A DNA stretch of 64,000 bases from Agitococcus sp. (GTDB taxonomy: Bacteria > Pseudomonadota > Gammaproteobacteria > Pseudomonadales > Moraxellaceae). The translations under genes and the position numbers were made by a program. Shown here one piece after another: positions 45,779-57,587 of this stretch. The stretch is from the NCBI GenBank assembly GCA_030646715.1, contig JAUSLJ010000046.1:62001-126000 (forward strand), given 5' to 3'. The notes beneath the pieces are model-generated. The model worked only from the letters and a program-made list of their open reading frames with translations, was not told where the DNA came from and did no database searches. How positions within the stretch are numbered: the stretch's first letter is position 1; each line of letters begins with the position of its first letter.

Positions 45779-45950
45779 AAATATAAATTAACAAAGAGCA
45801 TCTAAGCGGCCATTTTAGCCTATGACCACCGCAATAAGAACCCGCAGATTATTTAATATTTTATACACTCCCTGTAAAAGATGCTTAACTTTCCCTTAAA
45901 CATCTAGCTCTGATATTTAACGTATAAAAAATGTTATTAAAGTGAAAAGA

Positions 45951-46053
45951 TAAGTGTCTAAACGAAAGTTGGTTTGTATCCTCAGTTCGCCATGAGCTCG
46001 TCGAAGGGTGCTTCGATTTTTCGACAAGCTCTCCATGAACGTGTAGATACTTA
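45951..46053. repeat. Intergenic repeat, family B copy 3 (with terminal inverted repeats)
   Basis: 103 bp bounded by TAAGTGTCTA and TAGATACTTA, inverted with 9 of 10 bases matching. The interior has AACGAAAGTT, CGCCATGAGCTCGTCGAAGG and TTCGACAAGCTCTCCATGAACG, a hairpin pair. It looks like a complete MITE-like unit of which the other two copies are shortened. The gap from 45779 to here is AT-rich with no gene that I can see. Confidence 0.75.
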
Positions 46054-46061
46054 TATTGTTC

Positions 46062-46631
46062 TTATTCTAAATTTAGAGAGAGCTGCTCAACCGCATCAAG
46101 TGCAAATTTAGTGCTGGCGGCTAAAAACTCTTGTTGTAATTCTGGCGTTTTCAACGCTCTGGCTAAACTAATAGTGCCAACACTCAACGCTAAAATAGCC
46201 CAAGCGGATGAGTCACTGCCTGTATGTTTGGCAATAGTCGCGTGAATATTTTTAAGGCCATTCTCAAACACTTCTTTAACTTTATCGTCTGAGCGCGCAA
46301 TTTCGTTGGTCAATGAGGGGAGAGCACAGCCAAACTCAGGAAACTTCAGATGAAGTGGGCTTAAATAGGTACTAAGAACTTGCTCAATATTAATTTCGGA
46401 AGTTTGGCCACTAATAAAAGTATCCGAGACCTTTAATTCTCTAGTAATAATTTCAACTAATAGCTCAGTTTTTGATTCAAAGTGACTATAAAAAGCACCA
46501 CCCGTTAGGCCAACCGATGCCATTAGGCCATCCACACCCGTTGTTGCAAAGCCGTCTTTTTTCGCCAGTGCACCTGCCTTTTCAATGAGCTTCTGGCGAG
46601 TTTCTGCTTTACGGTTTTGTGGGTATCTCAT
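46062..46631 (-). CDS. TetR/AcrR family regulator, divergent from the ferredoxin gene
   Basis: 189 residues. N-terminal HTH: ETRQKLIEKAGALAKKDGFA, then VDGLMASVGLTGGAFYSHFE followed by SKTELLVEII. The ligand-binding part has an internal Cys (FPEFGCALPSLTNEIARSD), which in some relatives (NemR group) acts as an electrophile sensor. It is separated by 228 bp from the ferredoxin gene, with repeated TTCGTTATCT-type motifs between. It is the likely controller of the 46.8-54.4 kb accessory block. Confidence 0.88.
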   Translation of the reverse strand: MRYPQNRKAETRQKLIEKAGALAKKDGFATTGVDGLMASVGLTGGAFYSHFESKTELLVEIITRELKVSDTFISGQTSEINIEQVLSTYLSPLHLKFPEFGCALPSLTNEIARSDDKVKEVFENGLKNIHATIAKHTGSDSSAWAILALSVGTISLARALKTPELQQEFLAASTKFALDAVEQLSLNLE

Positions 46632-46703: not shown

Positions 46704-46787
46704 TGTTCTAGCCTAATCAAGTCCAATGACAAATATGACGAAAGATAATGATTATTCGGCCAATTGACTTCAATACCCTAATGAAAT

Positions 46788-46818
46788 AACTTTCGTTTAC
46801 TAAACGTTCGTTATCTAA
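46788..46818. promoter_or_regulatory. Operator-like direct repeats upstream of the ferredoxin gene
   Basis: Two near-identical units in tandem, TTCGTTTACTAAA then TTCGTTATCTAAA, about 40 bp before the ferredoxin start. Similar to the motif at 46689 beside the TetR gene. Confidence 0.45.
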
Positions 46819-46859: not shown

Positions 46860-47198
46860 ATGGCCTTTGTCGTAATGGAAGAATGTATTCGTTGTAAACA
46901 CACAGACTGCGTTGAAGTGTGTCCTGTTGATTGCTTTTATGAAGGGCCTAATTTTTTAGCGATTGATCCCGATGAGTGTATTGATTACGCGTTATGCGAG
47001 CCTGAATGCCCTGTTGATGCGATTCGTGCCGAAGACGAAGTACCCGCCGATCAACACCTATTTATTGCGTTAAATGCTGAATTGGCAAAACATGAAAACT
47101 GGACACGAATCACTAAGCAAAAACCTGCTATGCCAGATCATGCCGAGTGGAAAGGGGTAACTGGCAAGTTAGCGCAGTTGGATCGTAACGGGGCTTAA
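46860..47198 (+). CDS. fdxA: 7Fe ferredoxin (FdxA type)
   Basis: 112 residues. The Cys pattern is that of the [3Fe-4S][4Fe-4S] seven-iron ferredoxins: [20 protein letters not shown], then [18 protein letters not shown]. The C-terminal extension ([19 protein letters not shown]) is typical of the Azotobacter-FdI/FdxA group. It is a soluble low-potential electron carrier. It is first in the block with the crotonase and the molybdopterin enzymes, so it may serve them, but FdxA is also common as a housekeeping protein. Confidence 0.93.
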
Positions 47199-47257
47199 CG
47201 TTAAATAACATTTTGTATTGGTGCTTAGTAGCACAGTATTTTTAGAGAGCCATCATC

Positions 47258-48223
47258 ATGTCCACGCAATTGTTAGTCACTTCCGAACAAGGCCGCGTAT
47301 TAACCATTAAGATTGATAATCCGCCTGCCAATTTTTTGACTTCCGCGATTATGGCGCAGCTTAATAGCCTGTTGATTGAGCTTGAAATACGCAATGATAT
47401 TGGCGCAGTGATCATCACGGGCGCAGTGCAAAATATCTTTTTAACCCATTTTGATGTTGATGACATTGAATCTGCCGTTAATTCCATCCCTTTTGCGATG
47501 CCGACTGCGTTGGTACAAATGCTTACCACGTCAGAAAATACCTTGGATTATGTGCCTTATGCCCGTCAATTGTTAAAACATACGCCAATGGCGGGCGTAT
47601 CGGATATGAATATTTTTCATGAGGTGACGGCACGGATGCGAGCGATGAATAAAGTATTTATTGCCGCGATAAATGGCCGAGCTATGGGCGGGGGCTTTGA
47701 ACTGGCCTTAGCGTGTGATATGCGCTTGATGGTCGAAGGTGAGGCTAGTGATGGCATTATGGTCGGTCAGCCTGAAATTTTAATTGGTTTGATTCCAGGT
47801 GGTGGTGGCACACAAATGTTGGCGCGTAGTTTAGGTGTCGCCAAAGCATTAGAACATTGTTTAGAAGGTCAACCGTTGAGTCCCGCGCAAGCCTTAGAGT
47901 TAGGCATGATTAACAAAGTAGTGCCTGCTACGCAATTGATGGCAGAAGCGCAAATATTGGCTCAACGGATGGCATTACGATCGCCACAAGCCATTAAATC
48001 TATTAAAAACGCCATCTATCAAGCCAGTTCAATGACGTGGGATGCAGGCATGGAAGTGGAGAAAAACGCCTTTTTATCGGCAGCTTCGCAAGCGAATACC
48101 CGTCGTGCCATGCACTATTATATCGCCAAAGTAAGAGCATTAATTGCGTCGGGCGAACCGATGACCATTGACGATTTTAGCGAATTATTAGCGGGCAAAG
48201 CAGTTGATATGACCATCTCGTAG
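47258..48223 (+). CDS. Enoyl-CoA hydratase/isomerase family (crotonase) protein
   Basis: 321 residues, longer than simple hydratases by about 60. The oxyanion and catalytic regions are intact: AINGRAMGGGFELALACDMR has the first catalytic Glu, and VGQPEILIGLIPGGGGTQML has the second. An insert (FAMPTALVQMLTTSENTLDY, followed by VPYARQLLKHTP) sits between strand and active site and may shape a large-substrate pocket. It probably hydrates an enoyl-CoA. It lies between the ferredoxin and the first molybdopterin enzyme. Substrate unknown. Confidence 0.88.
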   Translation: MSTQLLVTSEQGRVLTIKIDNPPANFLTSAIMAQLNSLLIELEIRNDIGAVIITGAVQNIFLTHFDVDDIESAVNSIPFAMPTALVQMLTTSENTLDYVPYARQLLKHTPMAGVSDMNIFHEVTARMRAMNKVFIAAINGRAMGGGFELALACDMRLMVEGEASDGIMVGQPEILIGLIPGGGGTQMLARSLGVAKALEHCLEGQPLSPAQALELGMINKVVPATQLMAEAQILAQRMALRSPQAIKSIKNAIYQASSMTWDAGMEVEKNAFLSAASQANTRRAMHYYIAKVRALIASGEPMTIDDFSELLAGKAVDMTIS

Positions 48224-48224
48224 G

Positions 48225-48240
48225 GGCGAATTTATTCGCC
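48225..48240. repeat. Short palindrome, family C copy 1
   Basis: GGCGAAT-TT-ATTCGCC, preceded by TAGG. The 16 nt TAGGGGCGAATTTATT recur inverted at 58805-58820. A widespread type of REP-like hairpin; it may end the crotonase transcript. Confidence 0.65.
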
Positions 48241-48277
48241 AAATCAACTGTATTATTCATTTTAAGGTGAGGCCATA

Positions 48278-50650
48278 ATGCAAACAGAACAACAACCCGA
48301 ATGGAAAAAAACAGCATGTATTTTATGTGCAATTAACTGTGGCTTAGAAGTGCAAACAGGCGGTGATGATGGCCGACAAATCCTCAAAATTCGCGGTGAC
48401 GACGATCATCCCTTATCCAAAGGTTATGTTTGTGAAAAGTCACAACGCATGAATTACTACCAGCAAGGTGCTGACCGTTTAACTTCGCCGATGCGTCGCC
48501 GAGCCGATGGCACGTATGAGGCCGTTGATTGGGATACTGCCATTCGGGAAGTGGCTCAAAACCTAAAAGCGATTAAGCAAAAATACGGCGGCGAAAGCTT
48601 TTTGTATTATGGCGGAGGCGCTCAAGGCAATCATTTAGGCGGCGGTTATGGTGATGCCACGCTCAAAGCCTTAGGAGTGAAATATCGCTCCAATGCTTTA
48701 GCACAAGAAAAAACGGGCGAGTTTTGGGTACAAGGGAAAATGTTTGGCACGGGCGCGCATGGTGATTTTCATCATTGTGAAGTGGCTATATTTTTGGGTA
48801 AAAATCCGTGGCAATCACATGGTTTTGCCCAAACACGCGTCTTATTAAAAGAGATTCAAAAAGACCCTCAACGCGCCATGATTGTCATTGATCCACGTGT
48901 CAGTGAAACTGCAGCAATGGCCGAATATCATTTACAAGTCAAACCTGCCACCGACGCATGGTGTTTGGCGGCACTGATTGCCATTATTGTGCAAAATAAC
49001 TGGCATAAAGCGGATTGGTTAGCGCAACACACCACCAGCTTTGCCAAAATTGCCCCGTTATTTGCCGATATCAATATCGCTGACTATGCCAAAATATGTG
49101 GTGTTGAACTCAGTTTATTGCAGGCAGCCGCACAACGGATTGCCCAAGCTAAAAGTGTGTCGATTTTTGAAGACCTCGGCACGCAAATGAATCAACATTC
49201 CACCTTAAATAGCTATTTACAACGTCTATTAGCGACGGTGACAGGCAATTACGGCAAAGAGGGTGCAGCCAATGCGTATGTGCCATTTTTTTCGTTAGCC
49301 AAAGCCAGTAAAGGCGAGACAGGTGGCAGTAGCAAAAAAGCCAGTCCAACACCTGCCAATAAAGGCCGTTTTAGCCCTGTTACCCAATCAAAAATTATTA
49401 TTGGTTTAATTCCGTGTAATGTCATTCCTGATGAAATTTTAACCGATCATCCTAAACGTTTTCGCGCGATGATTATTGAAAGTGGCAATCCTGCGCATTC
49501 CTTAGCGGATAGCCAACGGATGCGTGAAGCGATTCGTGCGCTAGAATTTAGTCTAGTGATTGATGTCGCCATGACCGAAACGGCGCGTCAGGCTAGTTAT
49601 GTGTTGCCTGCATCCAGTCAGTTTGAAAAAGCCGAAGCGACATTTTTTAACATGGAATTTCCCAAAAATGCCTTTCATGTTCGCCAACCCTTATTTGAGC
49701 CATTAGCAGGCACATTGCCCGAAGCAGAAATTCATGCCCGTTTACTGGAAGCGATGGGGGAGTTATCGGAAAGAGATTATCAGCCCTTACGTTTAGCCCT
49801 CAAGCTTGACCAAATTAAGCTCGGCCAACGTAAATTAGGTGATATTCACATTTTCAAAGAATCGTTAGCGCGTAAGGCGTTTGCCGCTGCTTTTGTCACA
49901 CAAGCCGCGTTATCTAAAAAAGTTGTGCCGTACGCGCCAATCATTTTATATCGCACATTAGGCCAAACCTTACCTAAAGGCATGGAAGCGGCAGCATTGG
50001 TGTGGGCGTTATCGTTGTTTCATGTCATGGATAATCCAAAAACGGCTGCTCGCGCAGGATTTACAGGACTTGCACCCTTAGCTGGTGACCGTTTATTTCA
50101 AGCCATTCTCGATAATCCATCGGGTGTGGTCTATGCCGACCGTAATTATCAAGAAAGCTGGCAAGCTATTAAACTGCCAGAGCATCGTATTGAATTGTAT
50201 ATTGCTGAGTTAGTGGGCGAAATTGAAAAACTCGCCACCAGCCAACCTGAGTTAACAGACCCCAATTATCCCTTCGTCTTGTCCGCAGGCGAGCGGCGTA
50301 ATGACACAGCAAATACTGCCGTTCGTGACTCCAGTTGGTACAAACGTGGACGTTTTGGCACGTTGCGTATTCATGCCCAAGATGCGGCAGATTTAGGTTG
50401 TATTGATGGTGATGTCGTGCAATTAACCACGCCTCGCGGCTCGGTACAAGTGCCATTAGAAATATCAAAAATGATGCAACGTGGCCATATTTCTTTGCCG
50501 AACGGACAAGGCTTGCAATATCCCAATGCCAATGGTGAGCTGATTCAACAAGGTATTGCGCCTAATGAATTAACAGATACCAGTCGGCGTGATTTTTTTG
50601 CGGGTACGCCTTGGCATAAATGTGTGCCTGCTCAGTTAGCCAAAGTGTAG
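48278..50650 (+). CDS. Molybdopterin-dependent oxidoreductase (DMSO-reductase superfamily), paralogue 1
   Basis: 790 residues. An N-terminal [4Fe-4S] site is formed by Cys14, Cys17, Cys21 and Cys52 (CILCAINC, KGYVCEKS). The MGD domains follow with FLGKNPWQSHG, MIVIDPRVSETAAMAEYHLQ and the C-terminal dinucleotide-binding domain (ERRNDTANTAVRDSSWYKRG, LTTPRGSVQVPLEIS). There is no Tat signal, so it is cytosolic. Where formate dehydrogenase or nitrate reductase carry a Cys/Sec ligand, this protein reads ALAQEKT (140-146), identical in the second paralogue. Substrate unknown. The centre (KASKGETGGSSKKASPTP) holds a Ser/Lys-rich loop absent from its paralogue. Confidence 0.88.
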   Translation: MQTEQQPEWKKTACILCAINCGLEVQTGGDDGRQILKIRGDDDHPLSKGYVCEKSQRMNYYQQGADRLTSPMRRRADGTYEAVDWDTAIREVAQNLKAIKQKYGGESFLYYGGGAQGNHLGGGYGDATLKALGVKYRSNALAQEKTGEFWVQGKMFGTGAHGDFHHCEVAIFLGKNPWQSHGFAQTRVLLKEIQKDPQRAMIVIDPRVSETAAMAEYHLQVKPATDAWCLAALIAIIVQNNWHKADWLAQHTTSFAKIAPLFADINIADYAKICGVELSLLQAAAQRIAQAKSVSIFEDLGTQMNQHSTLNSYLQRLLATVTGNYGKEGAANAYVPFFSLAKASKGETGGSSKKASPTPANKGRFSPVTQSKIIIGLIPCNVIPDEILTDHPKRFRAMIIESGNPAHSLADSQRMREAIRALEFSLVIDVAMTETARQASYVLPASSQFEKAEATFFNMEFPKNAFHVRQPLFEPLAGTLPEAEIHARLLEAMGELSERDYQPLRLALKLDQIKLGQRKLGDIHIFKESLARKAFAAAFVTQAALSKKVVPYAPIILYRTLGQTLPKGMEAAALVWALSLFHVMDNPKTAARAGFTGLAPLAGDRLFQAILDNPSGVVYADRNYQESWQAIKLPEHRIELYIAELVGEIEKLATSQPELTDPNYPFVLSAGERRNDTANTAVRDSSWYKRGRFGTLRIHAQDAADLGCIDGDVVQLTTPRGSVQVPLEISKMMQRGHISLPNGQGLQYPNANGELIQQGIAPNELTDTSRRDFFAGTPWHKCVPAQLAKV

Positions 50651-50786
50651 CTTGTAGAGCTTTTTAGCGTGTTATGACTAAGGCGAGTGATTACGCCTTG
50701 AATGATGCGTGCCATGTAAAGTTAATGTTTACGGTGTAAACTTTTAGTGATATTGTTTGATTTCTATCCATTCACAGAGAAAAACC

Positions 50787-51218
50787 ATGACCATTCAGCA
50801 TCTACAGCCCGTTGTTGCGACTTCTTTAGCGCAATGGCACAAAATGATTGATACCAAAGACACCACCATTTTGATTGAGTTATTACATCCCGAGGTCGTG
50901 TTTCGTTCGCCAATGGCACATCGTCCTTATGCGGGAGCGTTTGCAGTGGCGTTGATTTTGCAAACCGTGATTACTATTTTTGAAAATTTTACCTATCACC
51001 GTTCTTTTGCCAGTGATGACGGTTTAGAAATTGTTTTAGAGTTTAGCGCGTTGGTTGATGGCAAATCGCTGAAAGGCATCGACATGATTCGTTTTAACCA
51101 AGACGGAAAAATTGTTGATTTTGAAGTGATGATTCGACCCTTTAATGCCTTAGCTGCTTTAGGTAAAGCAATGGGCGAGCGCGTAGCGGGTAAAGTAGAA
51201 AGTCACAAAGTTGGCTAA
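50787..51218 (+). CDS. NTF2-like (SnoaL-fold) protein between the molybdopterin enzymes
   Basis: About 143 residues from ATG 50787; an earlier TTG-initiated frame is unlikely. Pattern: TSLAQWHKMIDTKDTTILIE, LHPEVVFRSPMAHRPYAG, VLEFSALVDGKSLKGIDMIR and FNQDGKIVDFEVMIRPFNAL, a classic SnoaL-like cone. Related in fold, but not closely in sequence, to the NTF2 genes at 5152 and 26195. It could be a dehydratase, isomerase or small-molecule binder for the block's substrate. Confidence 0.82.
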   Translation: MTIQHLQPVVATSLAQWHKMIDTKDTTILIELLHPEVVFRSPMAHRPYAGAFAVALILQTVITIFENFTYHRSFASDDGLEIVLEFSALVDGKSLKGIDMIRFNQDGKIVDFEVMIRPFNALAALGKAMGERVAGKVESHKVG

Positions 51219-51255
51219 TTTTTAGGTCAACAACGATTCTTGAGGAAAAATAGTT

Positions 51256-52050
51256 ATGAGCCAAACACAGCAGCCGTTATCCGTTTATATCGAGGGTCAG
51301 GGTGAACAAACAATTCTCATGATTCATGGTTGGCCTGATACCTACAGAGTATGGGATGAGCAAGTGGCGGCCTTGTCGCCTCATTATCGTTGTTTGCGTG
51401 TGACCTTGCCAAATTTTGATCAACAAGGTGCGCGTCATGCCTATCGTTTTGGTGATGTCGTGGCGATGATTAACCAAGTAGTTGATGAGTTTTCACCGAA
51501 TAAGCCTGTGATTTTATTGATTCACGATTGGGGTTGTGTTTTTGGCTATCAGTTTTATCGCCAATATCCGCAGAAGGTGAGCCATTTAATTAGCATCGAC
51601 ATCGGTGATGCGTTATCTAAAGACTATTTAAAGTCACTTAAAGCGTATCAAGCGTTAATGATTGTCAGCTATCAACTTAATTTAGCGGCGGCATGGTTTT
51701 TACCTGAAGCCATTGGCACACCGCTGACAAAATTAGTGGCCAAAGCCTTACAACAGCCAACGCCCGCCGAGCCTGTTCATCGAGCAATGAATTATCCGTA
51801 TTTTCAAACATGGTTTAAGCCCATTAGTGACCCTGTAAAACCGTTTAGTATCGTGCCTGATTGTCCCATGCTGTATGTTTATGCCAAACATAAACCTGTC
51901 ATGTTTCAATCAAAACAATGGTTAGCACGAGTGGCGGCACAGCAGGGTAATCAAGTGGTTGCGATGGAAGCAGGTCATTGGTTAATGCGTGAACAAGCCC
52001 CCGCTTTTAATAGCTTGGTTTTAAATTGGCTACAATCATCACAACGCTAA
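51256..52050 (+). CDS. Alpha/beta hydrolase, epoxide-hydrolase/dehalogenase-like
   Basis: 264 residues. The oxyanion motif HGWPDT is at about 24-29, the nucleophile elbow is LLIHDWGCVFGYQF with Asp91 in the HDWG context of epoxide hydrolases and haloalkane dehalogenases, and a C-terminal His is in MEAGHWLMREQAP (about 241). An Asp nucleophile argues against an ordinary esterase. The cap region contains AAAWFLPEAIG. It is 12 bp upstream of the second molybdopterin enzyme, so it is clearly in that operon. An epoxide or haloalkyl substrate is the inference. Confidence 0.85.
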   Translation: MSQTQQPLSVYIEGQGEQTILMIHGWPDTYRVWDEQVAALSPHYRCLRVTLPNFDQQGARHAYRFGDVVAMINQVVDEFSPNKPVILLIHDWGCVFGYQFYRQYPQKVSHLISIDIGDALSKDYLKSLKAYQALMIVSYQLNLAAAWFLPEAIGTPLTKLVAKALQQPTPAEPVHRAMNYPYFQTWFKPISDPVKPFSIVPDCPMLYVYAKHKPVMFQSKQWLARVAAQQGNQVVAMEAGHWLMREQAPAFNSLVLNWLQSSQR

Positions 52051-52062
52051 AAGGAAAATACC

Positions 52063-54426
52063 ATGACCGCCATGCCTTATGTTTTTAATGGTGCAGTGAA
52101 TGTTCCCAACACCGCCACCAATTTGCCGACAGCGTGTTCCTTGTGTTCACACAATTGCGGTTTGCGTGTCGATGTCGAAAATAACAAAATCGTCGCGGTG
52201 CGTGCAGATGAGGCACATCCGTCAACCAAAGGCTATTCCTGCAATAAAGCCTATGCCATTGCTAACTATGTCAATCATGCCCAGCGTGTTCAATATCCCT
52301 TAAAAAAGCGTCCTGATGGCACATTCGAGCGCATTAGTTGGGACAACGCGATTACTGAAATCGCCGCCAAACTCAATCATATTCGTCAAAATCATGCCCC
52401 GCGAGCCATTGCCTTTGCAGGATTGGGCGGGCAGGGTAACCATTCGGCAGGCTTTGGTGCTATTCCGTTAATGTATGGCATTGGCACGCCGATGGTGTTT
52501 ACTGCCTTAGCGCAAGAAAAAACCCAGCATTGGCTCAACGACCGCCGTATGATTCGTGGCACTCATGACATTTATCTTGTTCCCGATAAGCATAATGCCA
52601 AATTTATGTTGTTGATTGGCACAAATCCGCACATTAGCAATCAAGGTAGTAATCCTAAAGAAGCTCTTAAAGATATCTTTCGTGATGAGCAACGGCGCAT
52701 GATTGCCGTTGATCCTCGTATCACCGAAACCACGCGTTTAGCGGATAGACATTTACGCATTAAACCCGCCAAAGATTTGTACTTTTTATTGGCCTTAGCA
52801 GGCATTTTAGTGCAAGAGAATTTAGTTGATAGCCATTTTATCAACACCAAAACCGAAGGTTATGAAAAACTAGCAACTATTTTTGAGCGCATTAATATTG
52901 CTGAAATGGCCGAGCGTTGTGGCTTGAGCGAAGAAGATATTCGTGCCACTGCGCGTGAATTTGGTCAAACCAAACCTGCCACCATTGCCTTTGATTTAGG
53001 CATAGAACATTCGTCATTTAACACGCTGACCTCTTATATGGTTCGCGTGTTATTAATTATGACAGGAAATTATGGACGAAAAGGGGGCAACTTTTTTGTT
53101 CAGCTTTTTGGCCCTAAAATGCCGTATTTCAAAGAAATGACCAAAGCACTTGAGTCTTCTATTGAAGGCATTCCTGCGGTGTTGCCTATTCCACAATTTC
53201 CACCTGCAATTATTCCCGAAGAAATTCTATCATCACATCCTGACCGTATACGGGCATTGATTTGTGATGGTACGAATCCCTTAGCGAGTTACCCTGATAC
53301 TGGTCGTTTTAGAGCGGCATTTGCCAAGCTAGATTTGCTAGTGGTGATTGACCCTGCCATGAGCGAAACCGCACAAGTCGCTGATTATGTATTACCTGCG
53401 CCCGCAGGATATGAAAAGTGGGAGTTTTCAATTTTTCCTAAAGATATTATCGCGCCACAGGTTCGTCCACCTGTGGTTAATCCTTTGGGTGAAGCCTTGC
53501 CCGAAGTGGAGATATATTATCGTTTAGCACGAGCAATGGGTATTGTCGGTGCTGCGCCGAAAGCCTTACATAAACTGGCTAAAAGTGCGCGGACAACATG
53601 GGGCGCACCTGCCTATTTAGCTGCCGTTAATAGTTACGCTTTAGCGAGTAGTAAGCTAGAAAGTGTCGGTTCAGTGATCGCACGTTCGGCGTATTTAACC
53701 TATGAAACACTGGGCGCAACACTGCCAAATCCTATGCTGACTTATATATGGTTAAGTGCTTTAGGTTATGCCACCACACGCCGCGATCAAATTGAACGTG
53801 CATTACCTGAAACGAAAAAAATCCGTAACCCATTTGCGTTAACGGAATTTGTCTTCAAAAAGTTACTCGATCATCCCGAGGGGGTGTTGTTGGGGCATTA
53901 TGAGATGGAGAAAAACTTTGAAGCGAACTGTGGCAACAAGAATGGCAAAGTAAAAATGTATTTTGACGATTTTGCCCAAGATATTAGTCGATTATTGTTA
54001 AAAGACAGTGAGCCACACGATCCACAATATCCCTTTATTTTGAATGGTGGCTTACGCACAGGTTTTACCGCCAATACCATTATGCGTGACCCCAGTTGGC
54101 GTAAAGGTCGCGCGATTCATGCTTCGTTGTATATGTCCGAAGCTGATGCTGCTGCTTTGGAAGCTAAAGAGGGCGAGTTAATGCGAATTACCTCTAAACG
54201 CGCCTCCATTACAGCACCATTAAAAATCGACAAAAATACGCTCGCGGGGCATTTGCATTTGCCAAATATTTTGGGGCAAAACTATCCTGATCCTGTTACG
54301 GGGGAATTAAAGCCAACGGGTGTGTCGATTAATGAATTGGTCGATGCGATGGACAGAGATCCTTATACCGCGTGTCCACATACCAAGAGGATTCGCTGTA
54401 AAGTGGAGCGAGTAGAAGTGGTATAA
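52063..54426 (+). CDS. Molybdopterin-dependent oxidoreductase (DMSO-reductase superfamily), paralogue 2
   Basis: 787 residues, with an iron-sulfur site Cys25, Cys28, Cys32 and Cys60 (CSLCSHNC, KGYSCNKA). It shares GGQGNHSAGFG, ALAQEKT (148-154), LLIGTNPHISNQG and MIAVDPRITETTRLADRHL with paralogue 1, and the C-terminal domain has LNGGLRTGFTANTIMRDPSW. No Tat signal. As in paralogue 1, no Cys/Sec/Ser is seen where a metal ligand would be expected. It ends the block before a 128-bp gap with a large palindrome. The two enzymes probably act on related substrates or as a pair. Confidence 0.88.
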   Translation: MTAMPYVFNGAVNVPNTATNLPTACSLCSHNCGLRVDVENNKIVAVRADEAHPSTKGYSCNKAYAIANYVNHAQRVQYPLKKRPDGTFERISWDNAITEIAAKLNHIRQNHAPRAIAFAGLGGQGNHSAGFGAIPLMYGIGTPMVFTALAQEKTQHWLNDRRMIRGTHDIYLVPDKHNAKFMLLIGTNPHISNQGSNPKEALKDIFRDEQRRMIAVDPRITETTRLADRHLRIKPAKDLYFLLALAGILVQENLVDSHFINTKTEGYEKLATIFERINIAEMAERCGLSEEDIRATAREFGQTKPATIAFDLGIEHSSFNTLTSYMVRVLLIMTGNYGRKGGNFFVQLFGPKMPYFKEMTKALESSIEGIPAVLPIPQFPPAIIPEEILSSHPDRIRALICDGTNPLASYPDTGRFRAAFAKLDLLVVIDPAMSETAQVADYVLPAPAGYEKWEFSIFPKDIIAPQVRPPVVNPLGEALPEVEIYYRLARAMGIVGAAPKALHKLAKSARTTWGAPAYLAAVNSYALASSKLESVGSVIARSAYLTYETLGATLPNPMLTYIWLSALGYATTRRDQIERALPETKKIRNPFALTEFVFKKLLDHPEGVLLGHYEMEKNFEANCGNKNGKVKMYFDDFAQDISRLLLKDSEPHDPQYPFILNGGLRTGFTANTIMRDPSWRKGRAIHASLYMSEADAAALEAKEGELMRITSKRASITAPLKIDKNTLAGHLHLPNILGQNYPDPVTGELKPTGVSINELVDAMDRDPYTACPHTKRIRCKVERVEVV

Positions 54427-54481
54427 CGACTTAAATGTTTCTTAAGCCTTCTTCGTGAGGGCTTGTTTTTGCATCTTTAAT

Positions 54482-54530
54482 AATTAATATACAAACGTAT
54501 AGACAAGTGTATATTAATTGATATACTTGC
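54482..54530. promoter_or_regulatory. Large palindromic operator upstream of the desaturase pair
   Basis: AATTAATATACA (54482-54493) and TGTATATTAATT (54508-54519) form a perfect 12-bp dyad with a 14-bp spacer. An overlapping dyad GTATAT-TAATTG-ATATAC follows (54509-54526), and CAAGTGTATA is mirrored by TATACTTG. The array ends about 25 bp before the gene start. Likely regulator site, for example of a TetR/DesT-type protein. Confidence 0.6.
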
Positions 54531-56813: not shown

Positions 56814-57587
56814 TTACTTCTCAACAAACGCCCGTTCAATCACATAATGCGCGGGTTGACCGTGACGTGATTCTTGAAAGCCTTTGGCATCTAAAATGCG
56901 GCAGAAGTCTTTTAACATGCTGGGACTACCGCACATCATCACACGGTCAGTTTCAATATTTAACGGCGGCAAACCAATGTCGCTAAACAATTTACCGCTT
57001 TCCATTAGATCAGTTAAACGGCCTTGATTGCGGAACGGTTCGCGCGTTACGGTTGGGTAGTAAATCAATTTCTTTTTGATTTCTTCGCCAAAAAACTCAT
57101 TGTGTGGCAATTCATTGGTAATGTAATCGGCATAAGCCAACTCATTCACATTACGAACCCCATGAGTGAGAATGACATGGTCAAAACGCTCATACACTTC
57201 AGGGTCTTTAATAATACTCATAAATGGCGCTAAGCCTGTTCCCGTACTGATTAAATATAAGTTTTTACCTGGCAATAAACTTGATTGAACTAAAGTGCCC
57301 GTTGGTTTACGGCTCACTAATAAGGTGTCACCCGGTTTTAAATGTTGCAGGCGTGATGTCAGTGGGCCATCTTGCACTTTAATACTAAAAAACTCTAAAT
57401 TTTCTTCGTAGTTGGCACTGACAATACTGTAAGCGCGCATCAATGGCTTGCCATTCACTTCTAAGCCAATCATAACAAAATGACCATTATGGAAGCGTAA
57501 GCTAGTGTCACGGGTAGTGGTGAAACTAAATAAAGTATCGTTCCAGTGACGGACGGTTAATACGGTTTCAGAAGCAAAAGCAGACAT
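56814..57587 (-). CDS. fpr: Ferredoxin-NADP reductase (Fpr, bacterial subclass I)
   Basis: 257 residues, nearly the length of the Pseudomonas enzyme and ending in the same AFVEK. FAD motif RAYSIVSANYEENLEFFS, NADP motif STGTGLAPFMSII, and CGSPSML near the end. It transfers electrons between NADPH and ferredoxin or flavodoxin, with a role in oxidative stress. Convergent with the desaturase gene; the terminator is shared. Confidence 0.96.
   Translation of the reverse strand: MSAFASETVLTVRHWNDTLFSFTTTRDTSLRFHNGHFVMIGLEVNGKPLMRAYSIVSANYEENLEFFSIKVQDGPLTSRLQHLKPGDTLLVSRKPTGTLVQSSLLPGKNLYLISTGTGLAPFMSIIKDPEVYERFDHVILTHGVRNVNELAYADYITNELPHNEFFGEEIKKKLIYYPTVTREPFRNQGRLTDLMESGKLFSDIGLPPLNIETDRVMMCGSPSMLKDFCRILDAKGFQESRHGQPAHYVIERAFVEK

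Follow-up and report, generated by a model that had tools for sequence, protein, structure and literature searches.

A TetR-associated gene cassette in Agitococcus encodes a ferredoxin and two molybdopterin enzymes of an unnamed subfamily with a probable glutamate in the metal-ligand column

We analysed a 64,000-nucleotide stretch of DNA from Agitococcus sp. (contig JAUSLJ010000046.1, positions 62,001 to 126,000; hereafter the window), which holds a compact block of genes around two molybdopterin enzymes, MO1 and MO2. The ferredoxin, crotonase, two molybdopterin enzymes, NTF2-like protein and Asp-type hydrolase listed in the original prediction are all present on the + strand and were confirmed by Pfam and NCBIfam models, and the TetR gene is divergent. 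The order is tetR (46062–46631, − strand; PF00440), then fdxA (46860–47198; NF045490), the crotonase gene ech (47258–48223), MO1 (48278–50650), snoaL (50787–51218; PF12680), abh (51256–52050) and MO2 (52063–54426). Gaps between successive genes from fdxA onwards are 59, 54, 106, 37 and 12 bp, the 106-bp gap being counted to the TTG (50757) of the listed snoaL open reading frame, for which the ATG at 50787 is the likelier start. Because of this spacing of 12–106 bp, the organisation is operon-like. The block is a real unit with its own TetR and a putative operator (46786–46814), and its right end lies just after MO2; the predicted right border was thus correct, and on the left the unit also takes in tetR and the putative operator. 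A terminator-like hairpin followed by TTTTT (54443–54465, + strand) lies directly 3' of MO2; it is a consensus match only, and such sites are no commoner in the region than in shuffled sequence (6 found, 9.3 expected).

Both MO1 and MO2 contain all three domains of the DMSO-reductase family (Fe4S4 N-terminal, molybdopterin and dinucleotide-binding; PF04879, PF00384 and PF01568, all above cut-off) and are 34–35% identical to each other, in agreement with their description as paralogous molybdopterin oxidoreductases. A cytosolic location, as had also been proposed, fits inspection by eye, in which no signal peptide was seen and no predictor was run. The iron-sulphur (FeS) cysteines of MO1 are Cys14, Cys17, Cys21 and Cys52. 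The best solved relative of MO1 and MO2 is the formate-dehydrogenase-type entry 7qv7 (143.7 and 153 bits, respectively), and neither protein reaches the cut-off of any NCBIfam model among the matches listed. MO1-type and MO2-type rows formed separate clades (100/100), and the subfamily stood apart from NasA-type proteins (100/100), in a tree that used five of 16 NasA-type rows (11 left out) and carries a long-branch warning. Additionally, MO1 has extra segments (residues 496–529, 583–595 and 610–629) that are absent from at least 14 of the 16 NasA-type proteins. Judged from sequence, MO1 and MO2 are predicted single-subunit enzymes of a distinct, unnamed DMSO-reductase subfamily.

Members of this subfamily, which current records label simply 'molybdopterin-dependent oxidoreductase', come from Gammaproteobacteria, Bradyrhizobium, Streptomyces and Tsukamurella. 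A phylum survey of 398 genomes gave at least 4 with the subfamily, one of them the window's own; this is a lower bound, as only two candidates were scored per genome. A scan of named genomes for MO2 gave three loci, all in Moraxellaceae bins, and no relative was confirmed in the viral contigs scanned for further family rows. Genes under 400 amino acids and identical copies were left out of the protein set. The truncated members L044 and L049 are excluded from the count of 41 members used below, and L049 does show QEKT; the MO2 gene of genome G014 (L056, L028) enters the genome survey and locus listing, and is absent from the alignments, neighbourhood counts and tree. A mycobacterial gene was also considered and dropped, the parts of the literature consulted giving no function for it. 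Plasmid-borne relatives in Moraxella osloensis (L076 and L080) have a glycyl-radical enzyme and the activator of that enzyme as neighbours; the relative in L080 is reduced to its C-terminal part and adjoins a recombinase and a Tn3-family transposase.

The metal-ligand column was read from an alignment of 41 family members, two sister proteins and 16 NasA-type proteins, one of which is closer in character to formate dehydrogenase. A Gln-Glu-Lys (QEK) motif is invariant in 41/41 family members, and its Glu (Glu144 in MO1, Glu152 in MO2) aligns ungapped under Cys in 16/16 NasA-type proteins and under Asp in 2/2 sister proteins. In profile alignments the family Glu coincides with two cysteines, that of the RICHGP motif in formate dehydrogenase 7bkb and that of YMCIGN in acetylene hydratase, and phmmer put Glu152 of MO2 under the selenocysteine (Sec) of formate dehydrogenase H (FDH-H). 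We take the aligned Cys or Sec of the individual structure entries to be metal ligands. Neither MO1 nor MO2 has a Cys in the stretch displayed around the motif. Glu144 and Glu152 thus probably occupy the metal-ligand column, and may hold the metal. The ligands named for the superfamily in the available parts of three papers (PMC7331816, PMC9370002, PMC7759655) are Ser, Cys, Sec, Asp, OH or none, and Glu is not among them.

The window ferredoxin scored 154.7 bits against NF045490 (FdxA; cut-off 135). FdxA was found in 10 of 11 genomes searched, with none in G350 (83% complete). Six copies are 75–100% identical to that of the window, and each has an MO gene no more than about 1.2 kb away, mostly with one gene between, whereas the ten others represent the housekeeping form (59–67% identical). 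These two sets split at 100/100 in a tree of the 16 proteins, in which the bootstrap had not fully settled. The MO-linked form, here named FdxA2, is by its sequence grouping a ferredoxin clade that travels with MO enzymes. FdxA2 is not universal, because four of the eleven genomes with a family MO gene (G002, G003, G028 and G401, two of them incomplete) have the housekeeping form only. Codon 43 of fdxA in the window is TAC (Tyr; 46986–46988), a position that is Cys in 15/15 other FdxA proteins read, and the conserved cysteine set is incomplete in this copy although the family score is reached. The earlier designation as a 7Fe ferredoxin therefore names the right family for a copy that has Tyr43 where Cys is conserved; Tyr43 may mean that a cluster ligand has been lost or the cluster altered, or may be an assembly error. 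A gene for an Fpr-type ferredoxin-NADP+ reductase (56814–57587, − strand) lies outside the block, beyond a desaturase gene and on the opposite strand. Fpr homologues are linked to MO genes in three other loci (L056, L059, L105), with one more near match in L104, and Fpr is the probable electron source for FdxA2.

The TetR protein has a conserved Gly-Cys motif (Cys102). Same-cluster tetR genes occur in 11 loci, window counted, and the motif is present in 10/10 full-length members, the eleventh (L072) being truncated; we take it to be reminiscent of electrophile sensors such as NemR. The core of the putative operator, CGTTTACTAAACG (46794–46806), was spotted by eye in the tetR-fdxA spacer, where an automatic palindrome finder returned nothing; the arms of the whole site, 14 positions each, match at 11. 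Exact CGTTTACTAAACG occurs once in the window, and at two mismatches the count is 2, no more than chance (mean 1.8). A longer pattern, CGTTTASTAAACGNWCGTT, was sought with up to two mismatches in eight genomes. In the window's own 4.2-Mb genome (G000) it matched the tetR-fdxA spacer alone, and in the same-genus genome G001 it matched one place without mismatch, upstream of fdxA-abh-MO2. With two mismatches each, it also matched two places in G002, each lying between tetR and the MO1 gene of that genome, and three in G003, located before MO2 and before two tetR copies carried by different contigs; the other four genomes gave no match at this threshold. Because a backward-read control of CGTTTASTAAACGNWCGTT gave 0 to 3 matches per genome, the two-mismatch matches alone mean little. 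An operator in front of fdxA is probable on these patterns.

Comparison with relatives of the right-hand neighbours suggested how the block came to its site. Desaturase relatives were matched in 44 genomes, and nine regions were fetched. In all eight with both flanking genes visible (L165–L172, among which G338 and G350 are near copies), fabR adjoins an FNR-type reductase gene and the desaturase gene, at a fabR–reductase distance of 196 to about 330 bp (by matches), and the block is absent; the ninth region (L164) begins inside the reductase gene. In G001 the order mnmA-nudix-moaC-moaE-fabR-FNR-desaturase is that of the window minus the block, i.e. an empty site. Between the two shared flanks lie 8,610 bp in the window and 41 in G001. 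The left flank (45859–45873) is identical to the fabR-FNR spacer of G001 at 15/15 bases, and the right flank (54484–54517), a palindromic box that is not part of the cassette, is 85% identical over 34 bases; short as they are, the two matches are in order, and each lies close to a junction. Because a same-genus genome gives the empty site, we interpret the block as a cassette inserted among fatty-acid genes, with fabR on one side and the FNR-desaturase pair on the other. The box before the reductase gene is kept at the empty site, and the reductase and desaturase therefore form a separate module. An operon running on into this pair, considered for its close 3' position, was rejected on the empty site and the conserved box, the terminator-like site adding little. 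Foreign base composition was likewise dismissed, G+C being 0.40–0.45 inside versus 0.37–0.46 around, and the repeats in the region examined held nothing nameable as a transposon end. The box at 54484–54517 is AT-rich and conserved with G001, and may serve the nearby fabR product as its operator. An inverted repeat GAGCTCGTCGAA...TTCGACAAGCTC (~45980–46050) at the cassette's left edge looks by eye like a repetitive extragenic palindrome.

The three other enzyme-like proteins of the cassette belong to familiar kinds. The crotonase domain (PF00378, 3e-42) has both motif Glu of the enoyl-CoA hydratase family, Glu148 (GGGFE) and Glu173 (GQPE), to which the protein can be assigned on this basis; it is below the cut-off in the best 25 of 72 NCBIfam models matched. 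The SnoaL/ketosteroid-isomerase-like protein has a SnoaL_2 domain and matches 3mso, an entry named 'steroid delta-isomerase', at 1.6e-48. The α/β-hydrolase carries an HGWP motif (HGxP type), an HDWG nucleophile elbow with Asp91 and a GHW motif with His241, and by these motifs is a predicted member of the epoxide hydrolase/haloalkane dehalogenase superfamily. Glu148 and Glu173 of the crotonase, and Asp91 and His241 of the hydrolase, are presumably catalytic. The earlier suggestion that the Asp nucleophile and the crotonase fit epoxide/enoyl chemistry is supported.

Neighbourhoods were compared for 48 MO genes in 47 loci (the window and 46 others), counting genes near (within 3 kb; 260 kb in total) and far (beyond 4.5 kb; 353 kb), with matches in the window excluded. 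TetR (13 vs 0), FdxA (6 vs 0), Fpr (3 vs 0), moaA (12 vs 0) and the crotonase family (5 vs 0, three of the five fadB-sized) were all seen near and not far, as were SnoaL and the hydrolase (1 vs 0 each). Linkage to β-oxidation through fadA was rejected, at 4 near versus 4 far. The original prediction named separate occurrence of the genes in relatives, with no conserved association, as the finding that would speak against it. The outcome is mixed: the complete set was seen in none of the 46 other loci, several of which are cut by contig ends (e.g. L014, L070, L072, L110), but TetR, FdxA and Fpr recur near MO genes. The recurring core is TetR and FdxA2, sometimes with Fpr, around an MO enzyme, and crotonase, SnoaL and hydrolase come and go. 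The abh-MO2 pair also occurs in G001, and snoaL upstream of MO2 also in G003. Elsewhere, rows of TetR, MO, SDR and enoyl-CoA hydratase genes are found in L078 (Bradyrhizobium) and L120, and MO-SDR-hydratase in L119. Carotenoid-oxygenase-type genes lie near MO2 relatives in three loci, on the opposite strand at a distance of 2.6 kb in L054 and 1.6 kb in L055, and on the same strand 253 bp upstream in L072; that of L054 scored 663.6 bits against an apocarotenoid 13,14-dioxygenase model, just short of its cut-off of 675. In L053, a haloalkane-dehalogenase-type hydrolase gene lies 20 bp after MO2 (411.1 bits; cut-off 265).

A different setting was seen in genus g15, which is probably Acinetobacter because three A. 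baumannii records contain a relative; its MO1 relatives lie in a molybdenum-cofactor row (L069, L102, L103, L105, L106, L109, L112, L113). moaA, moaE, moaC and moeA stand beside the family gene in 8/8 of these loci, and nasA, mobA and moaD accompany it in 7/8. In G367 (L112) a stop interrupts the gene. A copy from the window's own genus (L070) is also near nas genes.

Because the ferredoxin is dedicated and Fpr is linked, these data favour a redox step over the hydration or hydroxylation that had been entertained beside reduction, and make reduction the more likely. As a whole, the best explanation, held tentatively and a little short of even, is an inserted TetR-controlled cassette in which electrons pass from NADPH through Fpr and FdxA2 to MO reductases that, with helper enzymes, act on an unsaturated hydrophobic substrate. 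Induction would start with an electrophilic or hydrophobic compound releasing TetR. NADPH would then reduce FdxA2 through Fpr, and FdxA2 would pass the electrons to the FeS cluster of MO1 and MO2, whose Mo (or W) bis-pterin centre would be held by Glu144 or Glu152. The two enzymes would perform a two-electron reduction, removing oxygen or hydroxyl or saturating a bond, on a compound that may be an isoprenoid or apocarotenoid, steroid-like, or an acyl-CoA. Neighbouring C=C, shift and epoxide or ester steps would fall to the hydratase, the isomerase-like NTF2 protein and the Asp-type hydrolase, with MO1 and MO2 at different steps of one pathway. An MO2-type gene was found in 7 of 119 genomes (G000, G001, G003, G013, G014, G338 and G350; table read by eye), and a second family member in 6/7 of these versus 21/112 others (Fisher p=0.0005, an association confounded and inflated by kinship); its usual company fits two steps of one route. 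The more specific proposal, a cytosolic Mo (or W) subfamily with a Glu metal ligand and, in some lineages, its own ferredoxin and cysteine-bearing TetR, reducing unsaturated isoprenoids or lipids with MO1 and MO2 acting in succession, is doubtful in all its parts together.

Several observations count against this explanation, the kinship just mentioned among them. Electron direction, reductive reaction and unsaturated hydrophobic substrate are all drawn from neighbour genes, and the neighbour sets are loose, with fadA equally common near and far. Many MO genes sit in unrelated surroundings, the g15 row has no lipid genes, and the loci include close relatives, so that the neighbourhood counts are not independent events. 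The FdxA2 of the window, being without one conserved cysteine, may be impaired or losing function. As for the ligand, the motif misses the column by 2 residues against 9vap and by 4 against 2vpw, and the offset is a few residues against 7qv7 and 9t1s; hhalign against NasA displaces it by 13 residues, leaving the column unconfirmed there, and an AlphaFold model of MO2 from a 4-row alignment was unusable (mean predicted local distance difference test score 44).

The g15 row also points to a different function, in which MO1 and MO2 would be S- or N-oxide or oxyanion reductases for detoxification or assimilation and the lipid-type neighbours incidental. The nas genes near L070 point the same way, and NarGHI-type and related enzymes are known with an Asp ligand (from the available part of PMC7759655). 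However, the row may simply gather users of the molybdenum cofactor, it offers no place for the crotonase, SnoaL, hydrolase, SDR and carotenoid-oxygenase neighbours, and the extra segments of MO1 are missing from most NasA-type proteins; we consider this function rather unlikely. Electrons could also run the other way, with MO1 and MO2 as water-dependent hydroxylases or dehydrogenases of a hydrocarbon or steroid-like substrate that feed FdxA2 and then NADP+. As an acceptor of electrons from C-H hydroxylation a low-potential ferredoxin is ill suited, and ethylbenzene dehydrogenase and steroid C-25 dehydrogenase are multi-subunit enzymes, whereas nothing recognisable as an FeS or heme subunit gene lies beside MO1 and MO2. 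Such chemistry does exist in the same superfamily, in ethylbenzene dehydrogenase with its Asp ligand (available part of PMC7759655), and is carried out without O2 by steroid C-25 dehydrogenase (available part of PMC6016249), but we judge this direction unlikely here.

Chance assembly, in which independent TetR-MO units and catabolic genes accumulated at one insertion site with no shared pathway, would account for a full set that is seen in the window alone. The close packing, the single operator-like site, the abh-MO2 pair in G001 and the frequent company of MO2 with a second family member all speak for a common unit instead, and make this account quite unlikely. Close to the original prediction is a non-redox role as hydratases like acetylene hydratase, adding water onto C=C. 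Five entries match by profile with E values up to 1e-60, acetylene hydratase among them, and its YMCIGN cysteine lies under the family Glu; that cysteine is not kept in MO1 or MO2, and a ferredoxin clade of their own, together with the linked Fpr, speaks for electron flow, so that we regard a hydratase role as improbable.

The original prediction knew of no described pathway with this set of genes, and none was found among open-licence PMC papers, judged from titles and abstract starts; the same search found no description of a Glu metal ligand, of the subfamily or of the ferredoxin/TetR coupling. The component genes are of known kinds. If Glu does bind the metal, this would also open a group annotated only as 'molybdopterin-dependent oxidoreductase', with a nameable and testable electron donor, regulator and partners.

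Set against known systems, MO1 and MO2 share with the FdhF family (FdhF of the hydrogen-dependent CO2 reductase, 7qv7, which is the best sequence match, and FDH-H, 1aa6) the Cys4-Lys N-terminal FeS motif and the pterin domains. They differ in having Glu-Lys (41/41 in the family) where FDH-H has Sec-His, a column disputed by some alignments, and in scoring 209.5 and 232.5 bits against the TIGR01591 cut-off of 666.25. Acetylene hydratase (2e7z) is a Cys-ligated, non-redox enzyme; it matches by profile at 1.4e-61, and its Cys and the family Glu share a column, but it is Glu that MO1 and MO2 have in that column. The sister 'SVDQLPH' Mo-enzymes (L005 in G000:C28 and L071 in G002) are the nearest outside group in the tree and have Asp in the same column, yet are 25–26% identical, and the tree warns of long branches meeting there. 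NasA/NasC, the assimilatory nitrate reductases, belong to the same superfamily, have the same FeS motif and are cytosolic (available part of PMC7331816); unlike the family, they have Cys in the ligand column (16/16, versus Glu in 41/41), and MO1 and MO2 fall outside the NasA clade. The accompanying FeS/heme subunit genes of NarGHI and ethylbenzene dehydrogenase are absent from the block (neighbours elsewhere being judged by eye), and the ethylbenzene-dehydrogenase-type entry 2ivf is a weak sequence match (36.2 and 38 bits), but a carboxylate metal ligand would be common to all of them if Glu binds (ligand from the available part of PMC7759655). In that case, Glu144 and Glu152 would add a new first-shell residue to one of the best-studied metal-enzyme families.

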